Positions 37,919-53,742 of a DNA stretch of 64,000 bases are shown here, piece by piece. The translations under genes were made by a program, and so were the position numbers. Within the stretch, counting starts at the first letter, position 1, and each line of letters opens with the position of its first letter. The notes under the pieces were generated by a model. The model made no database searches. It worked only from the letters and a program-made list of their open reading frames with translations, and was not told the DNA's origin. The stretch is from the NCBI RefSeq assembly GCF_003797835.1, contig NZ_RKMF01000001.1, positions 124,001-188,000 on the forward strand, written 5' to 3'. Source of the stretch: Kocuria soli. GTDB lineage: Bacteria; Actinomycetota; Actinomycetes; Actinomycetales; Micrococcaceae.

Positions 37919-39007
37919 TCACTGCGGCAGCGGCGTGTGATCGGGCACCACGCGTTCGCTCTCCCGTACCGGCCCGGGAGCCGTTCCGCGACCGAACGGT
38001 GCGTCACCGAGCGCCTCACGGCCGTGCGGTTCGAGCCAGTTCTGCAGGTCCGGTCCCACCGGCACGATGCGGGTGGGATTGATGTCTCCATGAACCACGT
38101 AGTAGTGCTGCTTGATCTGTTCGAAATCCACGGTGTCGCCGAACCCCGGGGTGGTGAACAGGTCGCGCGCGTACGCCCAGAGGTTGGGCATCTCCGTGAG
38201 TTTGTTGCGTGAGCACTTGAAGTGGCCGTGGTAGACGGGGTCGAAGCGGACCAGGGTGGTGAACAGGCGGACATCGGCCTCCGTGATGTGCGGCCCCATG
38301 AGAAAGCGTCGGTCGGCCAGTCTCTCCTCCAGCCAGTCCATGGCCGTCCACAACCGGTCGTAAGCCGCCTCGTAGGCCTCCTGAGAGCCTGCGAACCCGC
38401 ACCGGTACACGCCGTTGTTGACCTCGGTGTAGACGCGTCGCATGACCTCCCGCATCTCGTCCTCGAGCTCGGTCGGCCACAGATCGGGCGCGCCCTCCCG
38501 GTGGAAGTCCGTCCATTCCTTGGCGAAGTCCTCCGTGATCTGCGGGAAGTTGTTGGTGACCACCTGCCCGGAGGCGATGTCCACCACCGCCGGGACGGTG
38601 ATCCCACGCGGGTAGTCCGGGAATCGCGCGAAGTAGGCCTCCTGCAGACGTTCGATGCCCAGAACGGGGTCCTTGCCCTCCGGGTCCAACTGGAAGTTCC
38701 ACGACCGCACGTCATGGGTCGGTCCCGGCAGTCCCACCGAGATCACCCCCTCCAGCCCCAGGAGACGGCGGACGATCAGGGTTCGGTTCGCCCACGGGCA
38801 GGCACGCGCAGCAACCAACCGGTAGCGGTCCCGCTCGACCGGCCAGGCCTCGGCCCCCTCGGAGAGCTGGGCCGTGGCGGGGTCCCGGACAATCCGGTCC
38901 TCGATGTAGTTGGTGTCCCGATCGAAGGACTCTCCGGCGTGCACGTAGGCACCCTTGGTGCTGTGCTCGTCCTGGCCGACCGCCGCCTCTGTCACGCCCT
39001 CATTCAT
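37919..39007 (-). CDS. Glutathionyl-hydroquinone reductase-like GST family protein
   Basis: 362 residues of the Xi-class/YqjG-PcpF-like glutathione transferase family. The catalytic cysteine is C70 in ARACPWANRTLIVR. ITVPAVVDIASGQVVTNNFP and ADVRLFTTLVRFDPVYHGHF are highly conserved in this class. Proteobacterial members reduce S-glutathionyl-hydroquinones. Actinobacteria generally use mycothiol instead of glutathione, so the thiol partner here may differ. GGAGGACACC precedes ATG 39007. The ben/cat region 2-5 kb away produces ring diols and catechol, so a role in quinone detoxification is plausible. Confidence 0.9.
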   Translation of the reverse strand: MNEGVTEAAVGQDEHSTKGAYVHAGESFDRDTNYIEDRIVRDPATAQLSEGAEAWPVERDRYRLVAARACPWANRTLIVRRLLGLEGVISVGLPGPTHDVRSWNFQLDPEGKDPVLGIERLQEAYFARFPDYPRGITVPAVVDIASGQVVTNNFPQITEDFAKEWTDFHREGAPDLWPTELEDEMREVMRRVYTEVNNGVYRCGFAGSQEAYEAAYDRLWTAMDWLEERLADRRFLMGPHITEADVRLFTTLVRFDPVYHGHFKCSRNKLTEMPNLWAYARDLFTTPGFGDTVDFEQIKQHYYVVHGDINPTRIVPVGPDLQNWLEPHGREALGDAPFGRGTAPGPVRESERVVPDHTPLPQ

Positions 39008-39161
39008 GGTGTCCTCCAAACCCGTCCTCCAAACCGTTCGACTAACCTCTCACCACTTTAGATGATACGTCACTAAACCGGTCGGGCCACCCCCTCCAGC
39101 GCCGCTCCGCAGTAAGCTGGGACCCTCAGGCACACGAAATGCCCGGTCTGGAGGCCACGAC

Positions 39162-40009: not shown

Positions 40010-40516
40010 ATGAGCACGACCGACCCGGAGCGAGATCAGACCCCACCCTCAGACGTTCCGCGCTGGCTCACGGAGCAGGAACAGCGGACCTGGCGCAATT
40101 TTCTGTTCGGCGCCCGCAGCCTGCTCCGAGGAATCGATCGACAGCTCTTGCGAGACAGCGACCTCTCGGGCGCGGAGTACGACGTGCTCGTACCGTTGTC
40201 CGAATCCCCGAGTGGCCGCATGCGGTCGCGGGACCTCTTGGAGTTCCTCGGCTGGGAACGCAGTCGTCTTTCTCATCTGCTGACGCGCATGAGTCGCCGC
40301 GGTCTGGTGGCACGACTCCCATGCCCCGACGACGCGCGCGGGCTCGACGTGCTCATCACCCCAAAGGGGACACAGGCGATCGAGTCCGCCGCACCAGCGC
40401 ATCTGGCCATGGTCAGGGCAGTCCTCATGGACGAGCTCACGGATGAGGAAGCAGCCGCCATCAACAGCATCAACGCCAAGATGACGGCACGCCTCAAGGA
40501 GTTGGACCTGGACTGA
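40010..40516 (+). CDS. MarR family transcriptional regulator
   Basis: 168 residues, a winged-helix dimeric repressor. The recognition helix region is MRSRDLLEFLGWERSRLSHLLTRM. The wing follows in GLVARLPCPDDARGLDVLIT, with an Arg/Asp pair typical of the family. One cysteine in the wing (CPDDARG) is unusual. GGCACAGAAAG stands before ATG 40010, a weak ribosome-binding site. MarR proteins commonly sense phenolic compounds; catA and ben lie 0.5-2 kb further on, so it might respond to those aromatics, but no target site is evident. Confidence 0.88.
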   Translation: MSTTDPERDQTPPSDVPRWLTEQEQRTWRNFLFGARSLLRGIDRQLLRDSDLSGAEYDVLVPLSESPSGRMRSRDLLEFLGWERSRLSHLLTRMSRRGLVARLPCPDDARGLDVLITPKGTQAIESAAPAHLAMVRAVLMDELTDEEAAAINSINAKMTARLKELDLD

Positions 40517-41042: not shown

Positions 41043-41927
41043 TCAGGCGGTCTCTCCCTCACGGGCCAGCACGTAGTTGTAGACAGCCTCTTCACCCTCG
41101 CCGCCGTCGGTCCGCGGCTTGGGTTCGAGCATCAACTCGGGCTTCACGGCCGATGCGATGTCGTCCTCGTTGTGCGGATCGCCCGGGAAGTAGAGCTGCT
41201 GCGTGACCAACTGGAAGCCGGGGGCGTAGACCTTGATGTGGATGTGGGCCGGACGCCAGGCGTGCCATCCGGCCGCCGCGATCAACTGGCCGCAGGCGCC
41301 GTCGGTGGGAATCTGGTACGGAGCCGGCCGCATGGTGTTGATCTCGAAGTTGCCGTCCTCGTCGGCAAGGACCACACCTCGGAACAGCCACTTGGGCAGC
41401 TCAGGGGCGTACTGGGAGTAGAAGCCCATGGCGTCGGCGTGCCAGATCTCGACCACCGCGTCCTTGATGGGCTGGCCCGATGTGTCCTTGAACGAGCCGG
41501 TGAACTTCAGGGGCGTGCCCTCCTCGTCCTCACGCATCTCCAAGGTGGCGGGGGTTGCCATCTCAGGAGCGTTGGGCACGTAGTAGGGACCTTCGATGGT
41601 CCCGATCGCGCCGGGGCGCTCGACGGAGTTGATCTCCTCGATGGTGTGTTCGAGCCAGACGTCCAGGAACAGCGGCCATTCACCGTCGGTACCGACCTTG
41701 ATCAGCCAGGCCTTCAGGGCGTTGTACTCGTCGTAGGTGACGCTGTGCTTGACGGCGACGTCGTTGATCGCCTGAATCGCTTCGCCGGCGATGGCCGACA
41801 CGCGCTCCTGAGACACGTCCATGCCGTGCAGTTTGCCGGACTCGCTGAAGCGCTGAGTCGCGAGGGTGCCCGCCTCGACAGCGGTACCTTCGTCCTCCCT
41901 GCGGGCATCGGTGCTGGATTCGCTCAT
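41043..41927 (-). CDS. catA: Catechol 1,2-dioxygenase (intradiol)
   Basis: 294 residues. It cleaves catechol between the hydroxyls to cis,cis-muconate using Fe(III). Iron ligands can be assigned by spacing: Y170 (MGFYSQY), Y204 (RPAPYQIP), H228 and H230 (PAHIHIKV). EIWHADAMGFYS is a family signature. The N-terminal helices that form the dimer in this class occupy residues ~35-105. GGAGG lies 5 nt before ATG 41927. The open frame continues upstream to 42236, but those codons look non-coding. It is divergent from benA, whose pathway supplies catechol. Confidence 0.96.
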   Translation of the reverse strand: MSESSTDARREDEGTAVEAGTLATQRFSESGKLHGMDVSQERVSAIAGEAIQAINDVAVKHSVTYDEYNALKAWLIKVGTDGEWPLFLDVWLEHTIEEINSVERPGAIGTIEGPYYVPNAPEMATPATLEMREDEEGTPLKFTGSFKDTSGQPIKDAVVEIWHADAMGFYSQYAPELPKWLFRGVVLADEDGNFEINTMRPAPYQIPTDGACGQLIAAAGWHAWRPAHIHIKVYAPGFQLVTQQLYFPGDPHNEDDIASAVKPELMLEPKPRTDGGEGEEAVYNYVLAREGETA

Positions 41928-42117
41928 GTCATCCTCCACGTCTTCGTCATTGGATGGTTGGTCTTTGATGGGTTGGTCAACTTGGGCTGGTGACCGCGAA
42001 CGGACCCGCCTCTTCACTTGGATCTTGGTGACCGGCACAACCGCCTCGGTGTCCGGGCACTCACGGCGCGGGCCGTTCTCCCACCCGGAGCATCGAATGT
42101 GACGTGCGCTACATCCC

Positions 42118-42147
42118 ACTGTAGAACCCTCATTCCCAGGGTGACAA
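42118..42147 (-). promoter_or_regulatory. Probable catA promoter
   Basis: On the minus strand TTGTCA (42147-42142), spacer of 18 nt, TACAGT (42123-42118). The leader would be about 185 nt. Confidence 0.5.
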
Positions 42148-42167
42148 ATATCAATCAAGTGTGATTT

Positions 42168-42213
42168 ATGCCTAATCGAGAGGGTCGATACCCCCTGGGT
42201 TCCCACTAGGCAT
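42168..42213. repeat. Inverted repeat ATGCCTA ... TAGGCAT
   Basis: ATGCCTA at 42168-42174 and TAGGCAT at 42207-42213, perfect arms. Their centres are 39 bp apart, about four helical turns, so both lie on one face. It is a candidate two-site operator between catA and benA. Confidence 0.5.
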
Positions 42214-42224
42214 TCACCTGATGT

Positions 42225-42240
42225 GCCTGAGATCACAGGC
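42225..42240 (+). promoter_or_regulatory. Inverted repeat over the benA -35 region
   Basis: GCCTG, AGATCA, CAGGC. It lies about 17 nt upstream of TAATAG (42257-42262), the best -10-like sequence for benA. No consensus -35 is present, as expected for a promoter that needs an activator. Confidence 0.45.
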
Positions 42241-42328: not shown

Positions 42329-43714
42329 ATGACCGAGAACCTGAGCCACCTGCGAGATGTCCTGACCGACGCCGTCGTCGATGACCGCGACAAGGGCATC
42401 ATCCGCGCCAAGCGCGAGATCTTCACCGACGAGGAGATCTTCGAACTCGAGATGAAGTACATCTTCGAGGGCAACTGGATCTACCTGGCCCACGAGTCCC
42501 AGATCCCGAACGTCGGCGACTACTTCACCAACTACATCGGCCGTACGCCCGTGGTCATCACCCGCGACAAGGACGAGAACCTCAACTGCCTGGTGAACGC
42601 CTGTGCGCACCGTGGAGCCATGCTGTGCCGCCGCAAGACTGACAACCGCACCACGTTCACCTGCCCGTTCCACGGTTGGACCTTCCGCAACTCGGGCGAG
42701 CTGCTCAAGGTCAAGGACGGCCGCAACGGTGCCTACCCCGAGTCCTTCAACAAGGAGGGCTCGCACGACCTCACCAAGGTCGCACGCTTCGAGTCCTACC
42801 GCGGGTTCCTGTTCGGTTCCCTCAACCCGGACGTCAAGCCGCTCGAGGAGCACCTGGGCGACGCCACCAAGGTGATCGACTCGATCGTCGACCAGTCCCC
42901 CGACGGCCTGGAGGTCCTGCGCGGTGCCTCGACCTACACCTACGACGGCAACTGGAAGGTCCAGGCCGAGAACGGCGCCGACGGCTACCACGTGACCTCG
43001 GTGCACTGGAACTACGCCGCGACCACGTCCCGCCGGTCCTCCGGGGATTCGACCAACACCACCAAGGCCATGGACGCCGGCAAGTGGGGCAAGCAGAAGG
43101 GCGGGTTCTACTCCTTCGAGCACGGTCACCTGCTGCTGTGGCAGGAGTGGGGCAACCCGCAGGACCGCCCGCTGTGGGACCGCCGTGAGGAGCTCGTGGA
43201 GAAGTACGGGGATGAGATGGCCAACTTCATGGTCAACATCTCGCGCAACCTGTGCCTCTACCCGAACGTCTACATCATGGATCAGTTCTCCTCGCAGATC
43301 CGCACGTTCCGTCCGATCTCCGCCGACAAGACCGAGGTCACCATCTACTGCATCGCCCCCGAGGGCGAGTCCCCGGCGAACCGGGCCAACCGCATCCGTC
43401 AGTACGAGGACTTCTTCAACGCCTCCGGCATGGCGACCCCGGACGACCTCGAAGAGTTCCGCTCCTGCAACAAGACCTACTGGGCCACCAGCGCACCGTG
43501 GAACGACATGACCCGCGGCATGGAGCACGAGATCCAGGGCCCCGACGAGCAGGCCACCGCCCTGGGCATGACCCGGGTGCTGGCCTCCGGTGTCAAGACC
43601 GAGGACGAAGGGCTCTACCCGATCCAGCACGGCTACTGGCACGAGGTCATGGAGGCGGGGCTGTCCACCGAGGAAGATGCCGAAGCCGCCGAACCGAGCA
43701 CCGCCACGGCCTGA
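42329..43714 (+). CDS. benA: Benzoate 1,2-dioxygenase, large (alpha) subunit
   Basis: 461 residues. With BenB and the reductase BenC it adds O2 to benzoate, giving the cis-1,2-diol carboxylate. The Rieske centre is C92-x-H94 (ACAHRG) and C112-x2-H115 (TCPFHGW). The mononuclear iron site is [14 protein letters not shown], with D218, H221 and H226. Length and segments such as [14 protein letters not shown] match BenA/XylX. GAGGGAGCAG precedes ATG 42329. It is first in benABCDR. Confidence 0.97.
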
Positions 43715-43747: not shown

Positions 43748-44293
43748 ATGACTGACACCGCCGTTAAGGAGACCACCATGGCCGCGCTGATGAGCGTTGA
43801 GGACATCCAGGTGCTGGAGACCGTCCGGGCCTTCCTGCACCGCGAGGCACGACTGCTCGACGACCGCGACTTCGACGCGTGGATCGAGTGCTACCACCCG
43901 GACGCCGAGTACTGGATGCCGTCCTGGGACGTCGACGACACCCTGGTCACCGATCCGCAAACCGAGATCTCGCTGGTCTACTACCCCAACCGGGGTGGCC
44001 TCGAGGACCGCGTGTTCCGCATCAAGACCGACCGGTCATCGGCGACGTCGCTGCCCGAGCCCCGGCACAACCACAACCTCACGGACATCGAAGTCCTGGG
44101 TCGTGACGGGGACACCGTGCACGTCCGCTACAACTGGCTGACCGGCTACTTCCGTTACAACACGAACATGTACTACTGGGGCTACACCGAGGTCGACATC
44201 GACCTGGGCGGGGCACAGCCGCAGATCACCAAGAAGAAGGTCGTTCTGAAGAACGACTACATCCATCAGGTCATCGACATCTACATGACCTGA
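43748..44293 (+). CDS. benB: Benzoate 1,2-dioxygenase, small (beta) subunit
   Basis: 181 residues of the NTF2-like ring-hydroxylating beta subunit family, a structural partner of BenA. FLHREARLLDDRDFDAWIEC and DAEYWMPSWDVDD are typical. GAGGAG stands 7 nt before ATG 43748. A second ATG at 43778 would drop ten residues. It lies 33 nt after benA. Confidence 0.96.
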   Translation: MTDTAVKETTMAALMSVEDIQVLETVRAFLHREARLLDDRDFDAWIECYHPDAEYWMPSWDVDDTLVTDPQTEISLVYYPNRGGLEDRVFRIKTDRSSATSLPEPRHNHNLTDIEVLGRDGDTVHVRYNWLTGYFRYNTNMYYWGYTEVDIDLGGAQPQITKKKVVLKNDYIHQVIDIYMT

Positions 44294-44372
44294 TCCGCCG
44301 CCCGGCCGCGTACGCACCCACCGGGTGAGTAGCGGCCGTGTTGTTCGGCCCACGACTTTCCAGGAGATCCCC

Positions 44373-45986
44373 ATGGCACATCAAGTAGCACTGAATTTCG
44401 AGGACGGCGTCACCAAGGTGATCCGCGTCGGCGATTTCGAGACCATCATGGACGCCGCGTACAAGGCGCGCATCAACATTCCCTCGGACTGCCGCGACGG
44501 CGCGTGTGGCACGTGCAAGTCCTTCTGCGATTCGGGCTCCTTCGATCCCGGCGACTTCGTGGACGACGCCATGACCGAGGAGGAGCTGGACAAGGGCTAC
44601 CTCCTGACCTGCCAGGCCCTCCCGGAATCCGACATGTCCGTGAACATCGCGGGGACCTCCGAGGCCGCGAAGACCTCGGCCGCGTCCTTCGCCTCCACGG
44701 TCACGACCCTCGATCGTCACTCGGACTCCACGATCTCGTTCTCCCTGGACGTCGAGAACCGGGGCGACCTGGCCTTCCTGCCCGGTCAGTACGTTAACAT
44801 CAAGGTCCCGGGCACCGACGAGGTCCGGTCCTATTCGATGTCCAGCGGCCCGGAGGTGGACGCGGCCTCCTTCATGGTCCGGATCTCCCCGCAGGGTGCG
44901 ATGTCCGAGTACCTGCGGGACCGCGCCGAGGTCGGCGACGCCGTCGAATTCACCGGCCCGTTCGGCTCCTTCTTCCTGCGTGAGCCGAAGCGCCCCCTCC
45001 TGCTGCTGGCCGGCGGCACCGGCCTGGCACCGCTGCTGTCGATCCTCGAGAAGCTCACCCAGAATCCTCCCGGTCACCCCGTTCACCTGATCTACGGGGT
45101 CACGCGTGAGGCCGACATCGTGGGTCTGGACTGGTTGCGTGACTACGAGTCGCGGCTGCCGGACTTCACCTGGGATCTCATCGCCTCCGAGGAGGGCACG
45201 TCCGCACCCCACACGGGCTACGTCACTGCGCTCATCGGCCCCGAGCACCTGCACGACGGCGACGTCGACATCTATCTGTGCGGTCCCCCACCCATGGTCA
45301 ACGCCGTGTCCTCGTGGATGGACGCCGAGGGTGTGAGCCCGGCCAACTTCTACTTCGAGCGCTTCGCTCCCAAGGAGAAGACCGGTGGCGACGCCGAGAC
45401 GGGCGCCCCCGTGCCCTCGGAGACCGTTGCCCACCGGGGCGAAGAGATTTCCGGAGCCGAGGCCGTCTCCTCGATGGAGACCGGGCGCCTGCAGTTCGGT
45501 GCCGCGGACACCGCCGCCCATCTCGACGCGCGGGCGGGGCTGGAGTCGGCGATCGTTCAGTTGATGATCGGCAAGACCACCGACGAACAGTTCCACAACT
45601 GGGAGCGTCTGGCCTCCGCCGTGGATTCCACGGTGGAGGACGGCAAGGTCGTGGACGCGGAGCAGTTCGTCACCACGAACTTCGCGTTCCACGAATACCT
45701 GTTCACCGTCGCCGAGAACCCCGTGCTGCTCGAGGCCTACCGGGGACTGGACACGCAACAGCAGATGTCGGCCACCATCTGGGACGGTTCCCCCATCCTC
45801 GAATCCGTCGCCCGGGACCACCACGACCTGGTCGAGGCGTTCCGCCGCCAGGACCTGGCTGCCGCCCTGGAGATCGTCCAGCGACACACCAGTGCCGCCA
45901 AGGACACCATGGAGACCGCTGTCGAATCCGCGCAGTCCGGCGAGCAGCAGTCGGGCGGGCAGCAGGATGGTGAGCAGAGCTCATGA
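44373..45986 (+). CDS. benC: Benzoate 1,2-dioxygenase reductase with C-terminal FCD-like domain
   Basis: 537 residues, about 200 longer than proteobacterial BenC (~340). Residues 1-95 are a plant-type [2Fe-2S] ferredoxin with C40, C45, C48 and C80. Residues ~105-335 are the FAD/NADH reductase: RSYSMSSGP (152-160), GGTGLAP (214-220), and CGPPPMV (303-309). It passes electrons from NADH to BenA. After a linker, residues ~380-515 resemble the FCD ligand-sensing domain of GntR/FadR regulators: LDARAGLESAIVQL, FAFHEYLFTVAENPVLLEAY and DHHDLVEAFRRQDLAAALEI with H440, H483/H484 and H505. No helix-turn-helix is attached. CAGGAG precedes ATG 44373. It overlaps benD (ATGA). Confidence 0.93.
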   Translation: MAHQVALNFEDGVTKVIRVGDFETIMDAAYKARINIPSDCRDGACGTCKSFCDSGSFDPGDFVDDAMTEEELDKGYLLTCQALPESDMSVNIAGTSEAAKTSAASFASTVTTLDRHSDSTISFSLDVENRGDLAFLPGQYVNIKVPGTDEVRSYSMSSGPEVDAASFMVRISPQGAMSEYLRDRAEVGDAVEFTGPFGSFFLREPKRPLLLLAGGTGLAPLLSILEKLTQNPPGHPVHLIYGVTREADIVGLDWLRDYESRLPDFTWDLIASEEGTSAPHTGYVTALIGPEHLHDGDVDIYLCGPPPMVNAVSSWMDAEGVSPANFYFERFAPKEKTGGDAETGAPVPSETVAHRGEEISGAEAVSSMETGRLQFGAADTAAHLDARAGLESAIVQLMIGKTTDEQFHNWERLASAVDSTVEDGKVVDAEQFVTTNFAFHEYLFTVAENPVLLEAYRGLDTQQQMSATIWDGSPILESVARDHHDLVEAFRRQDLAAALEIVQRHTSAAKDTMETAVESAQSGEQQSGGQQDGEQSS

Positions 45987-46930
45987 CCCGGGACTCCGAC
46001 GGGGCCGAGGCACCCGCACCCGAGGGCACCTCCGAGAACTCCTCGGGTGCACCCGCGGGCGGTACGGGGACAGATGTCTCCGGCATGCCGACGGTTGACG
46101 GGGCACCGGCAGCTCCCCGGGTCATCACGCCCGGTCGCTTCGCCGGGAAGGCCGTCGTCGTGACCGGTGCCGCTCAGGGCATCGGCCGTGCCGTGGCCGA
46201 ACGGATCGCGGCCGAAGGCGGCGAGGTGTTACTGGTGGACCGCTCCCCGGTCGTCGAGGACGTCGCAGCGGAGATCAACGCGCGAGCCGAGTCGTCCTCC
46301 GGCGGTTACGGGTACGCCTTGGCCCTGGCCGGGGTGGATCTCGAGCAGGAAGCAGGTGCCCGGAAGTTCGTCGAGGTGGCGCTGAAGGACTACGGGCGCA
46401 TCGACGTCCTGATCAACAACGTGGGCGGAACCATCTGGGCCCGGCCCTTCGAGGCCTACGACGCCGAGAAGATCCAGCGGGAGATCCAGAGGTCCCTGTT
46501 CCCCACGCTGTACTCCTGCCACGCGGTCCTGCCGACCATGCTGGAAGCAGGCAGCGGGACCATCGTGAACGTGTCCTCCATCGCCACGGGTGGCGTCAAC
46601 CGCGTGCCCTACGCCGCGGCCAAGGGTGGGGTCAATGCTTTGACCAAGGCCCTGGCCCTCGAGGTCGGCCGGCGAGGAGTCCGCGTCGTCGCGACGGCCC
46701 CGGGTGGCACGCTGGCCCCGCCACGGACGGTTCAGCGGGGTCCCGGACCGGAGGGTGAGCGGGAAGAGGCCTGGTACCGGGAGATCGTGGATCAGACCGT
46801 CGATTCGTCGTACATGAAGCGCTACGGAACCTTGGAGGAGCAAGCCGCGCCCATCGTGTTCATGGCCTCCGACGAAGCCTCGTACATCACGGGTTCGGTG
46901 CTCCCCGTCGGCGGTGGCGATCAGGGGTAG
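45983..46930 (+). CDS. benD: Benzoate cis-diol dehydrogenase (SDR)
   Basis: 315 residues. It oxidises and decarboxylates 1,6-dihydroxycyclohexa-2,4-diene-1-carboxylate to catechol with NAD+. The NAD site is VVVTGAAQGIGRAVAE (about 58-73). NNVGG and the catalytic S with Y-x3-K (VPYAAAKGG) are present. Residues 1-~48 form an Ala/Pro/Glu/Gly-rich extension absent from usual BenD (~260 residues); an internal ATG at 46085 could give a shorter form. ATG 45983 overlaps the benC stop, which supports the long form. Confidence 0.94.
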   Translation: MTRDSDGAEAPAPEGTSENSSGAPAGGTGTDVSGMPTVDGAPAAPRVITPGRFAGKAVVVTGAAQGIGRAVAERIAAEGGEVLLVDRSPVVEDVAAEINARAESSSGGYGYALALAGVDLEQEAGARKFVEVALKDYGRIDVLINNVGGTIWARPFEAYDAEKIQREIQRSLFPTLYSCHAVLPTMLEAGSGTIVNVSSIATGGVNRVPYAAAKGGVNALTKALALEVGRRGVRVVATAPGGTLAPPRTVQRGPGPEGEREEAWYREIVDQTVDSSYMKRYGTLEEQAAPIVFMASDEASYITGSVLPVGGGDQG

Positions 46931-46934
46931 GACC

Positions 46935-49799
46935 GTGAGCCCGGTGACCCTGGATACCATCTGGCTCATGGTCGACGACGCCGCTCCCTCCACGCTCAAC
47001 CACCCCATGGTGGGGCGTGAGGGTGAGTTGGACGTGCTGCGGGAGCTCTACCGGGACGTCAAGAAGGGGATGAGCCGCGCCGTGGTCCTGCACGGGCCGT
47101 TGGGCAGCGGCAAGTCGCGGCTGGTCGCCGAGTTCCTGGCCGAGGTGCGCACACGCTCCACCACGGTGCTGTCCATGGTCGGTGACGAATGGGAATCCTC
47201 GCTTCCGCTGGCCGGGTACACCCAGTTGATGTCCACCGCCCCGCTGCGCAGCTCCAAGGGCTTCGACGGCGGCGCCCTCCCGCCGTCGACCGTGAGCGTG
47301 GACCTGAGCGCCGATCAGGCGGTCAATTACGCCCAGACGTTGCAGATCCACCTGGAGCAACTGCAGAAGCGCGGCCCCGTGATTGTGGTCGTGGACGACC
47401 TCCAGTGGGTGGACGAGGCGACATTGCGCATTCTGGTGTTCACGGCCCGACGGCTGCACGGCGCCAAGGTCATGTTCGTGTTCACCATGGACACGGAACA
47501 GACGGAAAAGATCCCCGTGGGGGTCCTCGACTACGTGGCCGGGCACCAGGTGCGCGCGATCGTCCTGCCACCGCTGACGGTCGAGGCCGTGGGACAGCTG
47601 GGCCGCAACCTGTTGGGAACGGACCTGGACGTGACCACGGTGCGTTCCTTGATCGAGCACACCGAGGGCAGGCCGCTGCGCCTGGTGGAGCTCATGCGAG
47701 AGATCCCCCATGACCACTGGCAGGGCCGGTTGCCCGATCTCCCGCCGAGCCGGCGGGTACGAGCACGGGTGAGAGCCCAACTCGCACGGGCCTCCGAAGA
47801 CCTGGTCACCGTGGCCCGTGCGGTGTCGGTGCTCGGGCCGAGTGCCCAACTGCACGCCGTGGCCGAGATCGCCCAGGTTCCGGACGCCTTGGCCTGTCTG
47901 GACGAAGGCCACGAGCTGCACCTGCTGCGATTCACGGTGTCCCAGACGCACAGCGAGGTGACCTTCACGGAGCCCGGCGCTGCACAAGCCGTGTACGACT
48001 CCATCCCGCCAACCGTGCGCATCGAACTGCACCGCACGGCGGCCCGCGTGGTCACGGACCCGGGCGAGCAACTCAACCACCGGGTCTCGGCAACGCCCGG
48101 CCCTGACGCCGAGCTGGCCGACGCCCTGGAGTCCTACGCCACCGTTCAGGCGCGCGCGGGTGCGTGGGCCGACGTCGCCACCGCGATGCTGGCCGCCTCC
48201 CGCCTGTCCGGCGACCGACGTCAGAAGGACCTTCGCCTGCTGCAGGCCGTGGACGCCATGGTCGGTTCCGGGGACCTGACCCAGGCCGCCACCTACCTGG
48301 GCACGATCGAGTCCCTGCCCTCCTCGCCCCTCCGATCGACCGTTCTGGGCTACCTGGCCGTGGTGACGGGTCAGTTCGCCAGCGCCAAAGCACACCTGGA
48401 CATGGCCTGGCGCACCGTCCGCCCCGAGCACGACCCCTCCACGGCAGCGCGCATCGCCCAGCGTCAGGTGCTGCACGGTCTGGCCAATTGGGACGGTCCG
48501 GCCATGGTCGACTGGGCGCACCAGACGTTGGCATTGGTCGATCGGGCCGAACCCGTGTGGGTCGAGGCCGAAGCGATCCACGGGCTCGGCCTGTTCGCGA
48601 ACCACCAGGTGGCCGAGACGGACGCCCTCTACCGCAGGCACATGTCCGAAGTTGCCGAGACGGCCCAGAAGCAGCGGATCCAGATGGGCTACGCCTGGTT
48701 CGCGTTGCGCACCGACGACGTCGAAGCCGCTCACCTGCACTTCGAGGCCGCCGTCCCCACGGAGTACCGCGGCGGTTCGCTCAGGATCTCCCTGTGGGCC
48801 GAGGCCTGGCTGGCCCGGTGCCAGCTCGTGCTCGGCGACTGGGACGCCGCTGCTGCCACCATCGCCCGCGCGTCAGTGCGGTTGGAGGGCTCCGGCATGC
48901 GTCTGATCCGTCCCCTGCTGTACTGGACCGCGGCCGAACTGTACGCGATGCGCGGCGACTGGGCCCGGTCCCAGCACTACGTCCAGCTGACCACGGCTCC
49001 CTCCGACGGATACCGCGCCATGGCAGTCCCCGCGGCGCTGGCCCGCGCCCGGTATCACGAGGCCCGGGCGGACTACGAAAGCGCCTACGAGGCCATTCAC
49101 CCGTTGTTGACCTCCGACCCTCAGACGCACGAGCGCTCGTCGTTCTGGCCGTGGCAGGACACGATGGTCAACGTCTTGGTCATGACCGACCGGCTGGAGG
49201 CTGCGCAGGAGTTCTTGGGTTCGATCGAGGCCGCATCTCCGGAAACACAGTCGGATACCGACAAAGCACGTCTTGCCTGGGCCCGGGGTCGGTTGCTGGC
49301 AGCCCAAGGCGATGCCGACGAGGCGCGTGAACACTTCGAAAGAGCCCTCGAGTACCTGCACCCGCACCACCGGCCCTACCTCAAGGCCAGGATCTGCTTC
49401 GCCTTCGGGCAGAGCATGCGCCGGGCCGGCAAACGCCGACTGGCCTCCTCGGTGCTGCGGACGGCCCGGGAGTTGTACGTCGCACTCGGCGCCAAGACCT
49501 ACGTCGCGCGCTGCGATCGGGAGCTCAAGGCCGCCGGTGTCGACACCGATGCCGGAGTCCTGGCCCAGGAACTCGGTGCCGACGGCCCTCGATTGTCGCA
49601 ACGCCCGGACACCGTGTCCTTGACGCCCCAGGAGCAGGCGGTTGCGCAGTTCGTGGCGAAGGGCGCGACGAACAAGGAGGTGGCACGGGCGCTGTTCATC
49701 GCCGAGAAGACGGTGCAGTACCACCTGACGCGCATCTACGGGAAGTACGGCATCCGCTCACGCAGCGAACTCGCGGCGCTCTACCGGCCGCAACAGTGA
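46935..49799 (+). CDS. benR: LuxR-family ATPase regulator, probable activator of ben genes (BenR-like)
   Basis: About 954 residues, the MalT-like large LuxR (LAL/STAND) class. Walker A is GPLGSGKS (about 54-61) and Walker B VVVDDLQWVDE (about 150-160). A long helical repeat region follows. The C-terminal LuxR DNA-binding domain is LTPQEQAVAQFVAKGATNKE followed by VARALFIAEKTVQYHLTRIY. Corynebacterium glutamicum has a BenR of the LuxR family at the same position after benABCD, so it is likely the benzoate-responsive activator. GTG 46935 starts 4 nt after the benD stop with AGGGG upstream; GTG 46914 and ATG 46968 are alternatives. Confidence 0.88.
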   Translation: MSPVTLDTIWLMVDDAAPSTLNHPMVGREGELDVLRELYRDVKKGMSRAVVLHGPLGSGKSRLVAEFLAEVRTRSTTVLSMVGDEWESSLPLAGYTQLMSTAPLRSSKGFDGGALPPSTVSVDLSADQAVNYAQTLQIHLEQLQKRGPVIVVVDDLQWVDEATLRILVFTARRLHGAKVMFVFTMDTEQTEKIPVGVLDYVAGHQVRAIVLPPLTVEAVGQLGRNLLGTDLDVTTVRSLIEHTEGRPLRLVELMREIPHDHWQGRLPDLPPSRRVRARVRAQLARASEDLVTVARAVSVLGPSAQLHAVAEIAQVPDALACLDEGHELHLLRFTVSQTHSEVTFTEPGAAQAVYDSIPPTVRIELHRTAARVVTDPGEQLNHRVSATPGPDAELADALESYATVQARAGAWADVATAMLAASRLSGDRRQKDLRLLQAVDAMVGSGDLTQAATYLGTIESLPSSPLRSTVLGYLAVVTGQFASAKAHLDMAWRTVRPEHDPSTAARIAQRQVLHGLANWDGPAMVDWAHQTLALVDRAEPVWVEAEAIHGLGLFANHQVAETDALYRRHMSEVAETAQKQRIQMGYAWFALRTDDVEAAHLHFEAAVPTEYRGGSLRISLWAEAWLARCQLVLGDWDAAAATIARASVRLEGSGMRLIRPLLYWTAAELYAMRGDWARSQHYVQLTTAPSDGYRAMAVPAALARARYHEARADYESAYEAIHPLLTSDPQTHERSSFWPWQDTMVNVLVMTDRLEAAQEFLGSIEAASPETQSDTDKARLAWARGRLLAAQGDADEAREHFERALEYLHPHHRPYLKARICFAFGQSMRRAGKRRLASSVLRTARELYVALGAKTYVARCDRELKAAGVDTDAGVLAQELGADGPRLSQRPDTVSLTPQEQAVAQFVAKGATNKEVARALFIAEKTVQYHLTRIYGKYGIRSRSELAALYRPQQ

Positions 49800-51917: not shown

Positions 51918-53663
51918 TCAGCCCTTGTGGCCCAGGTCGATCTCACGACCCTGCAGATCCTCCCTGACCAGACGGCGCTGGATCTTGCCCAGCATGGTCC
52001 GGGGAAGGTCGTCGACCGAGACAATGCGCCGCGGCACCTTGTATCGGGTGACCTTGGAATAGCAGTGCTCCCGCAGGGCGTGTTCGTCGAACTCGTGACC
52101 AGGAGTGGGAATCACGGCGGCCACCACGACCTCGGTGCCGTCATCAGCGCGCAGGCCCACGACGGCGGCGTCCTCGACCGTGTCGTTCATGCGCAGAGCC
52201 GCCTCGACCTCGCTCGGTGCCACATTGAAACCACCCGTGATGATGATTTCCTTGAGCCGGTCGACCACCTCGATGAAGCCGTCGTCGTCGATCTTCACGA
52301 TGTCGCCGGTCCGCAGCCAGCCGTCGACCAAGGACTCGGCGGTGGCGTCCGGTCGCTTCCAGTAGCCCTGGAAGACCTGGGGGCCGGAGACCCACAGCTC
52401 GCCCTCCTCGCCCCTGGCGACGTCCTCGTGCGTCTCGGGGTTCACCGTGCGCAGGTCGGTCGACGGGAAGGCGATCCCGATCGTGCCGGCCTTACGCAGT
52501 CCGCTGAGCGGGTTGCAGGAGACCAACGGAGAACACTCCGTGAGGCCGTAGCCCTCCACGAGCATGCCGTGCGTCCGGGTCTCCCATTCGTTGACCAGGT
52601 GCACGGGCAGCGCCATCGCCCCGGAGACTCCAACCTTGACTCCTTCCAGGGATGCACCCTTCCGGTCCGCGAGCTCCATGACCTTCTGGTACACAGGCGG
52701 CACCGCCGGCAGCACCGTGGCCTGGCGCTTCTTCATGGCCCCCACGATCAGATCGGGTCGAGGGGTTGGGAAGAGAACCAGAGTCGCGCCCAATGACATC
52801 GCCAGGGTCATGCCCAAGGTCAGACCGAAGGCATGGAACAACGGCAATGCACCGTAGAAGACCTCCTCCGAACTCGCGTGGAGCCATTGGGAGCCCATGG
52901 CCGCGTTGGACTCGAGGTTGCGGTGGGTCAGCATCGCACCCTTGGGCAACCCCGTGGTCCCCGACGTGTACTGCAGGACCGCGAGGTCGTGGGCACCGGG
53001 ATAGGGGTGGTCGTGAGCAATGGGTTCGTGGTCCAGTAGCTCCTTCCACGGGGTGGTGCCGGGCGCGACGGCTGTGAGACTCGCGCGCTGCTCACGAAGC
53101 TTCTTGACCGGCAGCCGAAGGGCCGCCCGCATCCGGCGGGGCATGGCCGCGGTGATGTCCACGGAGATGATGTGTTCCAGCTCGATGTCCTTGGGCAAGG
53201 ACTGCACAGCAGCCGCCGCCTTGTCCCATACGATCGCGACTCGGGCACCGTGGTCCTCGAACTGGTGGCGCAGCTCCGGTGCCGTGTACAGGGGGTTGTG
53301 TTCGACGACGATCGCTCCCAGTCGCATGACCGCATAGAACGCCACGATGTGTTGGGGGCTGTTCGGCAACACAAGAGCGACCCGGTCGCCGGCCTTGACA
53401 CCGAGCTCCCGAAGCCCCTCGGCAACCCGCTCCACGTCCCTGCCCAGGGAGTCGTAGGAGACGTCCGCCCCGAAGAAACTGACGGCCGCCTTGGGTCCGA
53501 ACTGGGCAACGGACTTCTCGAACATGTGGCTCAGGGAGGTTTCGGGCAGGTCGAGGTCACGCGCCACGCCGTCGTCGTAGCTCTTGGTCCAGGGCCTCGT
53601 GGCCAGGAACTCGCGGGATGAGCCGGAAGCCGCGGAGTGGGGGGCGCTGTGGTGCTCAGACAT
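51918..53663 (-). CDS. AMP-forming acyl-CoA ligase
   Basis: About 581 residues of the ANL superfamily, FadD-like. The P-loop YTSGTTGLPKGAMLTHRN, YGLTECSPLVSCNP, TGDIVKIDDDGFIEV and the C-terminal lysine segment LPRTMLGKIQRR are intact. It activates a carboxylate to its CoA thioester. FadD-type enzymes use long-chain fatty acids, but the operon position before a LysR gene and catB leaves aromatic or other acids possible. The start is ATG 53663; GTG 53669 is also possible. Confidence 0.87.
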   Translation of the reverse strand: MSEHHSAPHSAASGSSREFLATRPWTKSYDDGVARDLDLPETSLSHMFEKSVAQFGPKAAVSFFGADVSYDSLGRDVERVAEGLRELGVKAGDRVALVLPNSPQHIVAFYAVMRLGAIVVEHNPLYTAPELRHQFEDHGARVAIVWDKAAAAVQSLPKDIELEHIISVDITAAMPRRMRAALRLPVKKLREQRASLTAVAPGTTPWKELLDHEPIAHDHPYPGAHDLAVLQYTSGTTGLPKGAMLTHRNLESNAAMGSQWLHASSEEVFYGALPLFHAFGLTLGMTLAMSLGATLVLFPTPRPDLIVGAMKKRQATVLPAVPPVYQKVMELADRKGASLEGVKVGVSGAMALPVHLVNEWETRTHGMLVEGYGLTECSPLVSCNPLSGLRKAGTIGIAFPSTDLRTVNPETHEDVARGEEGELWVSGPQVFQGYWKRPDATAESLVDGWLRTGDIVKIDDDGFIEVVDRLKEIIITGGFNVAPSEVEAALRMNDTVEDAAVVGLRADDGTEVVVAAVIPTPGHEFDEHALREHCYSKVTRYKVPRRIVSVDDLPRTMLGKIQRRLVREDLQGREIDLGHKG

Positions 53664-53742
53664 GGGCACGAGCCTACCGCCGCAGTCGCCGACGAGCCCG
53701 CTTGCATGTCATCCAGATCGCCGACGCAGGTCAAACCCGATT

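Follow-up and report, generated by a model that had tools for sequence, protein, structure and literature searches.

The 64,000-nucleotide stretch of the Kocuria soli genome analyzed here (assembly GCF_003797835.1, contig NZ_RKMF01000001.1, positions 124,001 to 188,000 of the forward strand; hereafter the window) encodes a benzoate dioxygenase reductase, BenC, that carries an FCD domain at its C-terminus. In the FadR/GntR regulators, a large class of bacterial transcription factors, FCD is the half that binds the effector. Judged by its sequence, the BenC of the window is a normal reductase, passing electrons from NADH through FAD and a [2Fe-2S] center to the oxygenase BenAB, with the FCD domain tethered behind it, and that domain appears ligand-competent, its pocket retained.

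An FCD domain on a reductase, with no DNA-binding domain

The gene for this protein, benC-FCD (Table 1), begins at an ATG preceded by AGGAG; an alternative in-frame GTG start at 44325 would give a product of 553 residues. NCBIfam equivalog model NF040810 identifies residues 3-333 as BenC (1.1e-140, 468.5 bits against a cutoff of 430), and the gene order benA-benB-benC-benD agrees. A Pfam scan of the 537-residue product at E<=10 returned five families in total. The reductase domains are Fer2 (residues 9-84), FAD_binding_6 (110-200) and NAD_binding_1 (211-313), with NAD_binding_6 scoring under its cutoff. The remaining family is FCD, matched at 8.5e-17 with 62.2 bits against a cutoff of 24.3, over positions 3-123 of the 125 in the profile. 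In that scan no helix-turn-helix or other DNA-binding family was found, and the N-terminus, which in GntR/FadR regulators holds a winged helix, is occupied by the reductase. Benzoate dioxygenase reductase 1krh has the same three-domain reductase, with 48-49% identity over residues 1-334, but its chain of 337 residues is too short to include an FCD domain.

When the FCD domain was modeled separately, the confidence by predicted local distance difference test (pLDDT) was 94.6, the model was all-helical, and a fold search with it gave FCD-fold matches. The separate model was used because reductase matches fill the list returned for the whole protein, leaving that search silent on FCD. Both motifs quoted in an initial annotation made from the sequence alone, FAFHEYLFTVAEN at residues 437-449 and DHHDLVEAFRRQD at 482-494, are found in the protein. 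That annotation had described BenC as about 200 residues too long, with a C-terminal FCD region and no DNA-binding domain, and the description holds: the 537 residues compare with 333-342 in 21 proteobacterial BenC-like loci. It had also named what would speak against it, the lack of a match by hidden Markov model (HMM) or fold and the absence of the extension from close homologs; by computation, the matches exist and close homologs have the extension.

A chance match to FCD was rejected on the combined grounds of Pfam score, separate model, fold search and conservation of the pocket. An artefact of frame or assembly was likewise rejected, since a custom HMM places FCD in frame with BenC at 52 BenC-FCD loci (some genomes are present twice, e.g. 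L002/L032 and L003/L031, so these represent fewer genomes than loci). Other species and genera carry the extension too, likewise in frame, and purifying selection acts on it, so it is more than a product of chance.

Table 1. Coordinates of benC-FCD, its parts, and associated genes, as positions in the window unless a locus is named
Feature	Coordinates	Strand	Basis or remark
benC-FCD gene	44373..45986	+	537 residues; stop codon within coordinates
BenC reductase part, residues 3-333	44379..45371	+	[2Fe-2S] ferredoxin, FAD and NAD domains
Linker, residues 334-378	45372..45506	+	low model confidence
FCD domain by Pfam, residues 384-506	45522..45890	+	PF07729; modeled separately as residues 379-521
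Arg387, equivalent of carboxylate-binding NanR Arg128	45531..45533	+	NanR alignment
N436-x3-H440, equivalents of NanR zinc ligands Asp172 and His176	45678..45692	+	NanR alignment
His483, equivalent of NanR His222	45819..45821	+	NanR alignment
His505, equivalent of NanR His244	45885..45887	+	NanR alignment
catA, catechol 1,2-dioxygenase, divergent	41043..42236	-	TIGR02438 1.1e-126; start of open reading frame uncertain
benA, benzoate dioxygenase large subunit	42329..43714	+	TIGR03229 7.3e-247
benB, small subunit	43748..44293	+	TIGR03232 6.1e-72
benD, benzoate diol dehydrogenase	45983..46930	+	NF040811 1.6e-121; overlaps benC stop
Regulator of AAA-LuxR type, open reading frame	46914..49799	+	Pfam AAA_16, GerE; overlaps benD
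BenC-FCD-P450, apparently self-sufficient P450s	L065:6001-8802; L066:894-3683; L149:9001-11790		Pfam order verified on L065, L066

Predicted metal and carboxylate site

The site of the window FCD aligns with that of NanR from Escherichia coli (6on4; PMC8012715), whose ligand is N-acetylneuraminic acid (Neu5Ac). Arg128 of NanR contacts the Neu5Ac carboxylate, while Asp172, His176, His222 and His244 hold Zn2+. The window protein has the corresponding residue set of the metal-binding FCD subgroup (Arg, Asp/Asn-x3-His, His and His, as in NanR), with Asn436 standing at the position of Asp172, as the initial annotation had suspected. By analogy with NanR and its Zn2+ and Neu5Ac, we infer that the FCD domain of BenC binds a divalent metal and a small carboxylate.

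Conservation was counted over 241 distinct FCD sequences fused to ben or P450 proteins, with CoA-ligase fusions excluded and gapped sequences set aside column by column. This recount replaces an earlier alignment of 286 rows that held duplicates as well as 11 CoA-ligase rows. The residue at Arg387 is Arg in 238 of 239 sequences (Leu in L063), that at Asn436 is Asn in 239 of 240 (Ser in P0005), and His440 is His in all 240; Asn449, His483 and His505 are each invariant in 241/241. In a smaller set, Asn occupies position 436 in all 32 of the ben- or P450-fused domains, and among 26 free FCDs the residue is Asp in 16 and Asn in 4. Since Asn occurs throughout the ben and P450 fusions, it marks the whole enzyme-borne group rather than local decay. 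The CoA-ligase FCDs were kept out of all conclusions about the site. They show S/W at columns 436/505 in one alignment and D/H in another, probably because different FCD copies were used (one such protein, P0211, has two FCD stretches, and there are 11 surplus records).

Distribution of the extension

When each species was represented by a single genome, a scan found 64 BenC-like loci, of which 21 belong to Pseudomonadota, encode 333-342 residues and lack FCD, while 43 reach across the FCD domain (41 in Actinomycetota and two in Burkholderiales). Forty of the 41 actinobacterial loci are intact frames; the other, L085, is interrupted and was left out of alignments, and two (L058, L090) come from a single genome. 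The scan used six peptide patterns from the window protein, and its counts are skewed toward FCD-bearing loci because two of these patterns (DEQFHNWE and QQMSATIW) fall within FCD. A search of relatives found BenC with the extension in 13 of 39 genomes, that of the window included. The 3' end of one, L013, is doubtful: its match stops at residue 505, the open reading frame runs on into other sequence, and the genome is 79% complete, so L013 also was left out of alignments.

For a survey of 394 genomes of the class, the whole window protein served as query with an E limit of 1e-60. Sixteen genes pass: 12 with FCD (again counting the window's own), one actinobacterial gene without it (L105), and three distant reductases (L107-L109, 35-39% identity) that have no FCD and were kept out of the BenC count. 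The extension is thus carried by 12 of 13 BenC-like genes, these being defined by at least 49% identity, the window's genome included, and not by the BenC model. Together with the 41 actinobacterial loci, this bears out the suggestion of the initial annotation that the extension is general in actinobacterial BenC. Pfam finds FCD on 10 of the 12 representatives scanned, the two without being the proteobacterial BenCs L070 and L072; a Pfam scan of L105 found no FCD. By eye, L105 (1399-2523, minus strand) is followed immediately by a distinct BenD-like frame; L105 offers a natural control for FCD function.

A long reductase of this kind has reportedly been met before. Haddad, Eby and Neidle are said to have described in 2001 BopZ of Rhodococcus sp. 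19070, a benzoate dioxygenase reductase of about 60 kDa and some 201 residues longer than BenC or XylZ. Its extra C-terminus was reportedly described as unlike known proteins, with neither the FCD identity nor the pocket recognized.

FCD domains fused to further enzymes

PF07729 is among the precomputed domains of BenC-FCD-type proteins in the protein collection searched, many of them named BenC at source. Further architectures have an enzyme-attached FCD, as in the window, together with additional catalytic domains. In the first, BenC, FCD and BenD form a single chain. A total of 765 proteins matched, and 120 of the 120 listed carry FCD (a few rows are partial); hosts among the matches listed include Nocardioides, Amycolatopsis, Saccharopolyspora, Nocardia, Kribbella and Geodermatophilus. 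Pfam verified the domain order on L067, L096, L098 and L100. BenD follows directly, the chain continuing for a median of 270 residues past FCD, or about one short-chain dehydrogenase/reductase (SDR) domain.

In the second, of about 930 residues, the chain continues from BenC and FCD into a cytochrome P450 whose best match in PDB is YjiB, a match that points to no particular substrate. These proteins, named BenC in databases, occur in Burkholderia, Paraburkholderia, Caballeronia, Cupriavidus, Sphingomonas and Pseudocitrobacter, and share Asn436 and the pocket with the window FCD, as do the other BenC fusions. At the two loci examined (L065 from open reading frames, L149 as annotated), no ben genes were seen; the neighbors are a regulator, an SDR and an FAD-dependent oxidoreductase. 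A shorter FCD-P450 form of 555-600 residues without reductase is found in Kluyvera and Pseudocitrobacter (P0190, P0195, P0196, P0199, P0206, P0208), its composition verified by Pfam on P0196; fission and a misplaced annotation start are candidate origins. Lastly, CoA ligases of 872-907 residues carry FCD at the C-terminus (P0211-P0221, with P0211 verified by Pfam). Their FCDs are distant, at 28-29% identity, and of uncertain position in the tree.

The joining of BenC, FCD and BenD in one chain suggests that the NADH which BenD produces is consumed close by. This could be the whole purpose of the domain, FCD serving as a bundle for dimerization or docking. It would keep BenC close to BenD and the oxygenase and allow reuse of BenD's NADH, while any metal would be structural and nothing would be sensed. 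Such a scaffold fits the single chains of Nocardioides, Amycolatopsis, Saccharopolyspora and others, where FCD has BenC before it and BenD directly behind, and it fits the overlap of benC and benD in the window. Recycling of NADH for a Rieske oxygenase by an SDR has been demonstrated in another pathway, Tsa (PMC10579966); the terms FCD, BenC and fusion are not found in its main text. A scaffold would not, however, need the near-total identity of Arg387 and the Asn/His3 pocket, and FCDs are fused to P450s and CoA ligases too. We regard a pure scaffold as a minority possibility.

Descent of the enzyme-borne FCD

The FCD tree sets all the enzyme-fused domains it contains apart from 26 free FCDs at 99/100, in a tree whose bootstrap is unsettled and which has many long branches. 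The free set began with 36 loci, termed GntR from size and a Pfam FCD match alone; 32 matched the custom HMM, and 26 of those, at least 115 residues long, entered the tree. By this sequence comparison the enzyme-borne FCDs form a lineage of their own, apart from the sampled free FCD proteins. With the custom HMM, the best free FCD, L125 from Burkholderia, reaches 55 bits where the window FCD reaches 166, the free domains scored coming from three genomes plus that of the window. Capture of FCD from a neighboring regulator was tried as an explanation and rejected: NCBIfam assigns none of the 10 neighboring open reading frames scanned to FCD or GntR proteins. Two of the 10 have no NCBIfam match, one being like glutathione S-transferase (GST) by Pfam and the other lying at 40010-40516.

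In the reductase tree, actinobacterial FCD-bearing reductases and L105 form one clade (99/98), with the reductases of P450 fusions elsewhere. Within it, L105 branches among the BenC-FCD-BenD proteins (100/99), a position suggesting that its FCD was lost secondarily. A single entry of FCD into the enzyme family followed by spread, and two separate uses of a shared FCD, would both fit the trees.

Possible mode of action

The linker between reductase and FCD appears disordered in the structure model (pLDDT below 50 over residues 331-378). In counts that include duplicates, it measures 47-55 residues in BenC-FCD (n=64), 85-293 in BenC-FCD-BenD (n=122) and 20-22 in the P450 form (n=67). The reading we favor, at about an even chance, is that FCD is a tethered module whose ligand state alters its self-association or docking. 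A ligand-competent FCD would hang from the reductase on a flexible tether of some 45-50 residues, and occupancy by metal and carboxylate would change how it associates with itself or docks. Its ligand state would in turn govern assembly of reductase, oxygenase and BenD (the last in the same chain in many Actinobacteria), and through assembly the rate at which NADH is spent on ring hydroxylation. Candidate ligands would be an acid of the pathway (benzoate, its cis-diol or cis,cis-muconate) or a central carboxylate. Since tether length is not conserved, control is placed at assembly or docking and not in a rigid mechanical action on the flavin.

The initial annotation had instead proposed direct allosteric control, in which benzoate, its diol, catechol or muconate, bound to FCD, switches electron transfer inside the reductase. 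The intact carboxylate and metal site is in its favor, and FCD does lie directly C-terminal to the NADH reductase in ben fusions of verified order. The proposal is weakened by the linker, whose disorder and spread from 20 to 293 residues across fusions mean that rigid coupling to the reductase is not conserved. It is weakened also by the P450 fusions, where the same FCD lineage occurs in chains that lack ben neighbors at the two loci examined, so its ligand could come from outside the breakdown of benzoate. We therefore consider a direct gate unlikely. The probabilities assigned to assembly control, gating and scaffolding overlap; these readings do not exclude one another and are not intended to sum to one.

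Constraint on FCD was estimated as the ratio of nonsynonymous to synonymous rates (dN/dS), which is rough here, with synonymous differences up to 0.58 and near saturation in some pairs and with some pairs sharing genomes. The ratio for FCD is 0.05-0.25 in 12 pairs, indicating purifying selection. In the P450 pair (0.05 vs 0.15) and both BenC-FCD-BenD pairs (0.15 vs 0.29 and 0.17 vs 0.21), FCD is held more tightly than the reductase.

Several observations weigh against a ligand-dependent module. FCD is the less constrained part in 7 of 9 BenC-FCD pairs and equals the reductase at the printed precision in the other two (L046/L009 and the Brevibacterium pair). Asn in place of Asp at position 436 could weaken metal binding. 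BopZ, its extension in place, is reportedly active as a cytochrome c reductase in E. coli. Proteobacterial BenC-like loci lack FCD in 21 of 21 cases by length, and so does L105, an actinobacterial BenC inside the FCD clade; FCD is therefore dispensable for turnover as such. That these enzymes manage without it, and the looser constraint in most BenC-FCD pairs, are what would be expected if FCD were an inert passenger, left over from a regulator that became fused by accident and has since been tolerated. A passenger is nevertheless highly improbable, because of the low dN/dS of FCD and a pocket near-invariant across families; the presence of the domain in nearly all BenC-like genes of the class survey also tells against it.

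Genomic neighborhood

Apart from the FCD domain on benC, the ben cluster of the window is ordinary. The catA gene lies upstream of benA, and a relative of muconate cycloisomerase, scoring under the model cutoff, lies downstream of the ben genes. The TGA stop of benC and the ATG of benD share a four-base overlap, ATGA. Ahead of its SDR domain, BenD has about 50 residues rich in Ala, Pro, Gly and Ser (45983-46135; NF040811 starts at residue 52), resembling the linkers within fused BenC-FCD-BenD proteins. This start and the ATGA overlap are possibly the scar of a fission or the raw material of a fusion.

The LuxR-type regulator that overlaps benD raises another reading, in which BenC-FCD acts in trans, signaling the state of the pathway to a transcription factor such as this one. 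As a distant precedent, redox proteins of a dioxygenase, ThnA3 and ThnY, act in regulation of tetralin degradation (PMC4814904), and so link electron transfer to control of their own pathway as this reading would; the available part of that account describes no sensor domain fused to a catalytic reductase, unlike BenC-FCD. With no DNA-binding family in the BenC of the window, and with P450 and CoA-ligase fusions that have other partners, we hold a trans-acting role to be very unlikely.

Two further genes were noted. About 3 kb from the ben/cat cluster, 37919-39019 (minus strand) encodes a GST-like protein (GST_C_2) that is possibly, as a guess, a thiol-dependent quinone reductase. A long-chain fatty-acid CoA ligase (NF004114, 6.6e-257) is encoded at 51918-53669 (minus strand), close to the cat genes.

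Implications

A search of the literature, mostly confined to papers outside subscription, turned up no work on what FCD does in BenC, BenC-BenD or P450 fusions. The benC-xylZ product of Rhodococcus sp. TG-1 is labeled "FCD domain-containing protein" (PMC11858498); in the part of that paper available, FCD stands as a label and the role of the domain is not commented on. Databases thus already show the parts; the literature searched yielded nothing on retention of a NanR-like site, on the variety of architectures or on the question of function. The window alone could not have revealed that other lineages extend the BenC chain by BenD or a P450.

Across Actinobacteria, FCD is conserved as part of a catabolic enzyme, BenC, and its binding site appears intact. 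It is conceivable, as a tentative extension, that FCD is a general module for post-translational control of oxygenase-type metabolism. A metal-carboxylate sensor formerly of transcription factors would have become fixed on BenC-type reductases, setting electron delivery by metabolite level, and would have been carried into BenC-FCD-BenD and BenC-FCD-P450 proteins, with FCDs recruited to CoA ligases too. The BenD, P450 and CoA-ligase fusions make a ready set for tests of FCD ligands free of DNA binding. If the domain does bind a metabolite, the electron supply of Rieske oxygenases in Actinobacteria would be regulated at the level of protein, and such control would have to be considered in converting aromatic and lignin-derived acids and in reconstituting the enzymes.
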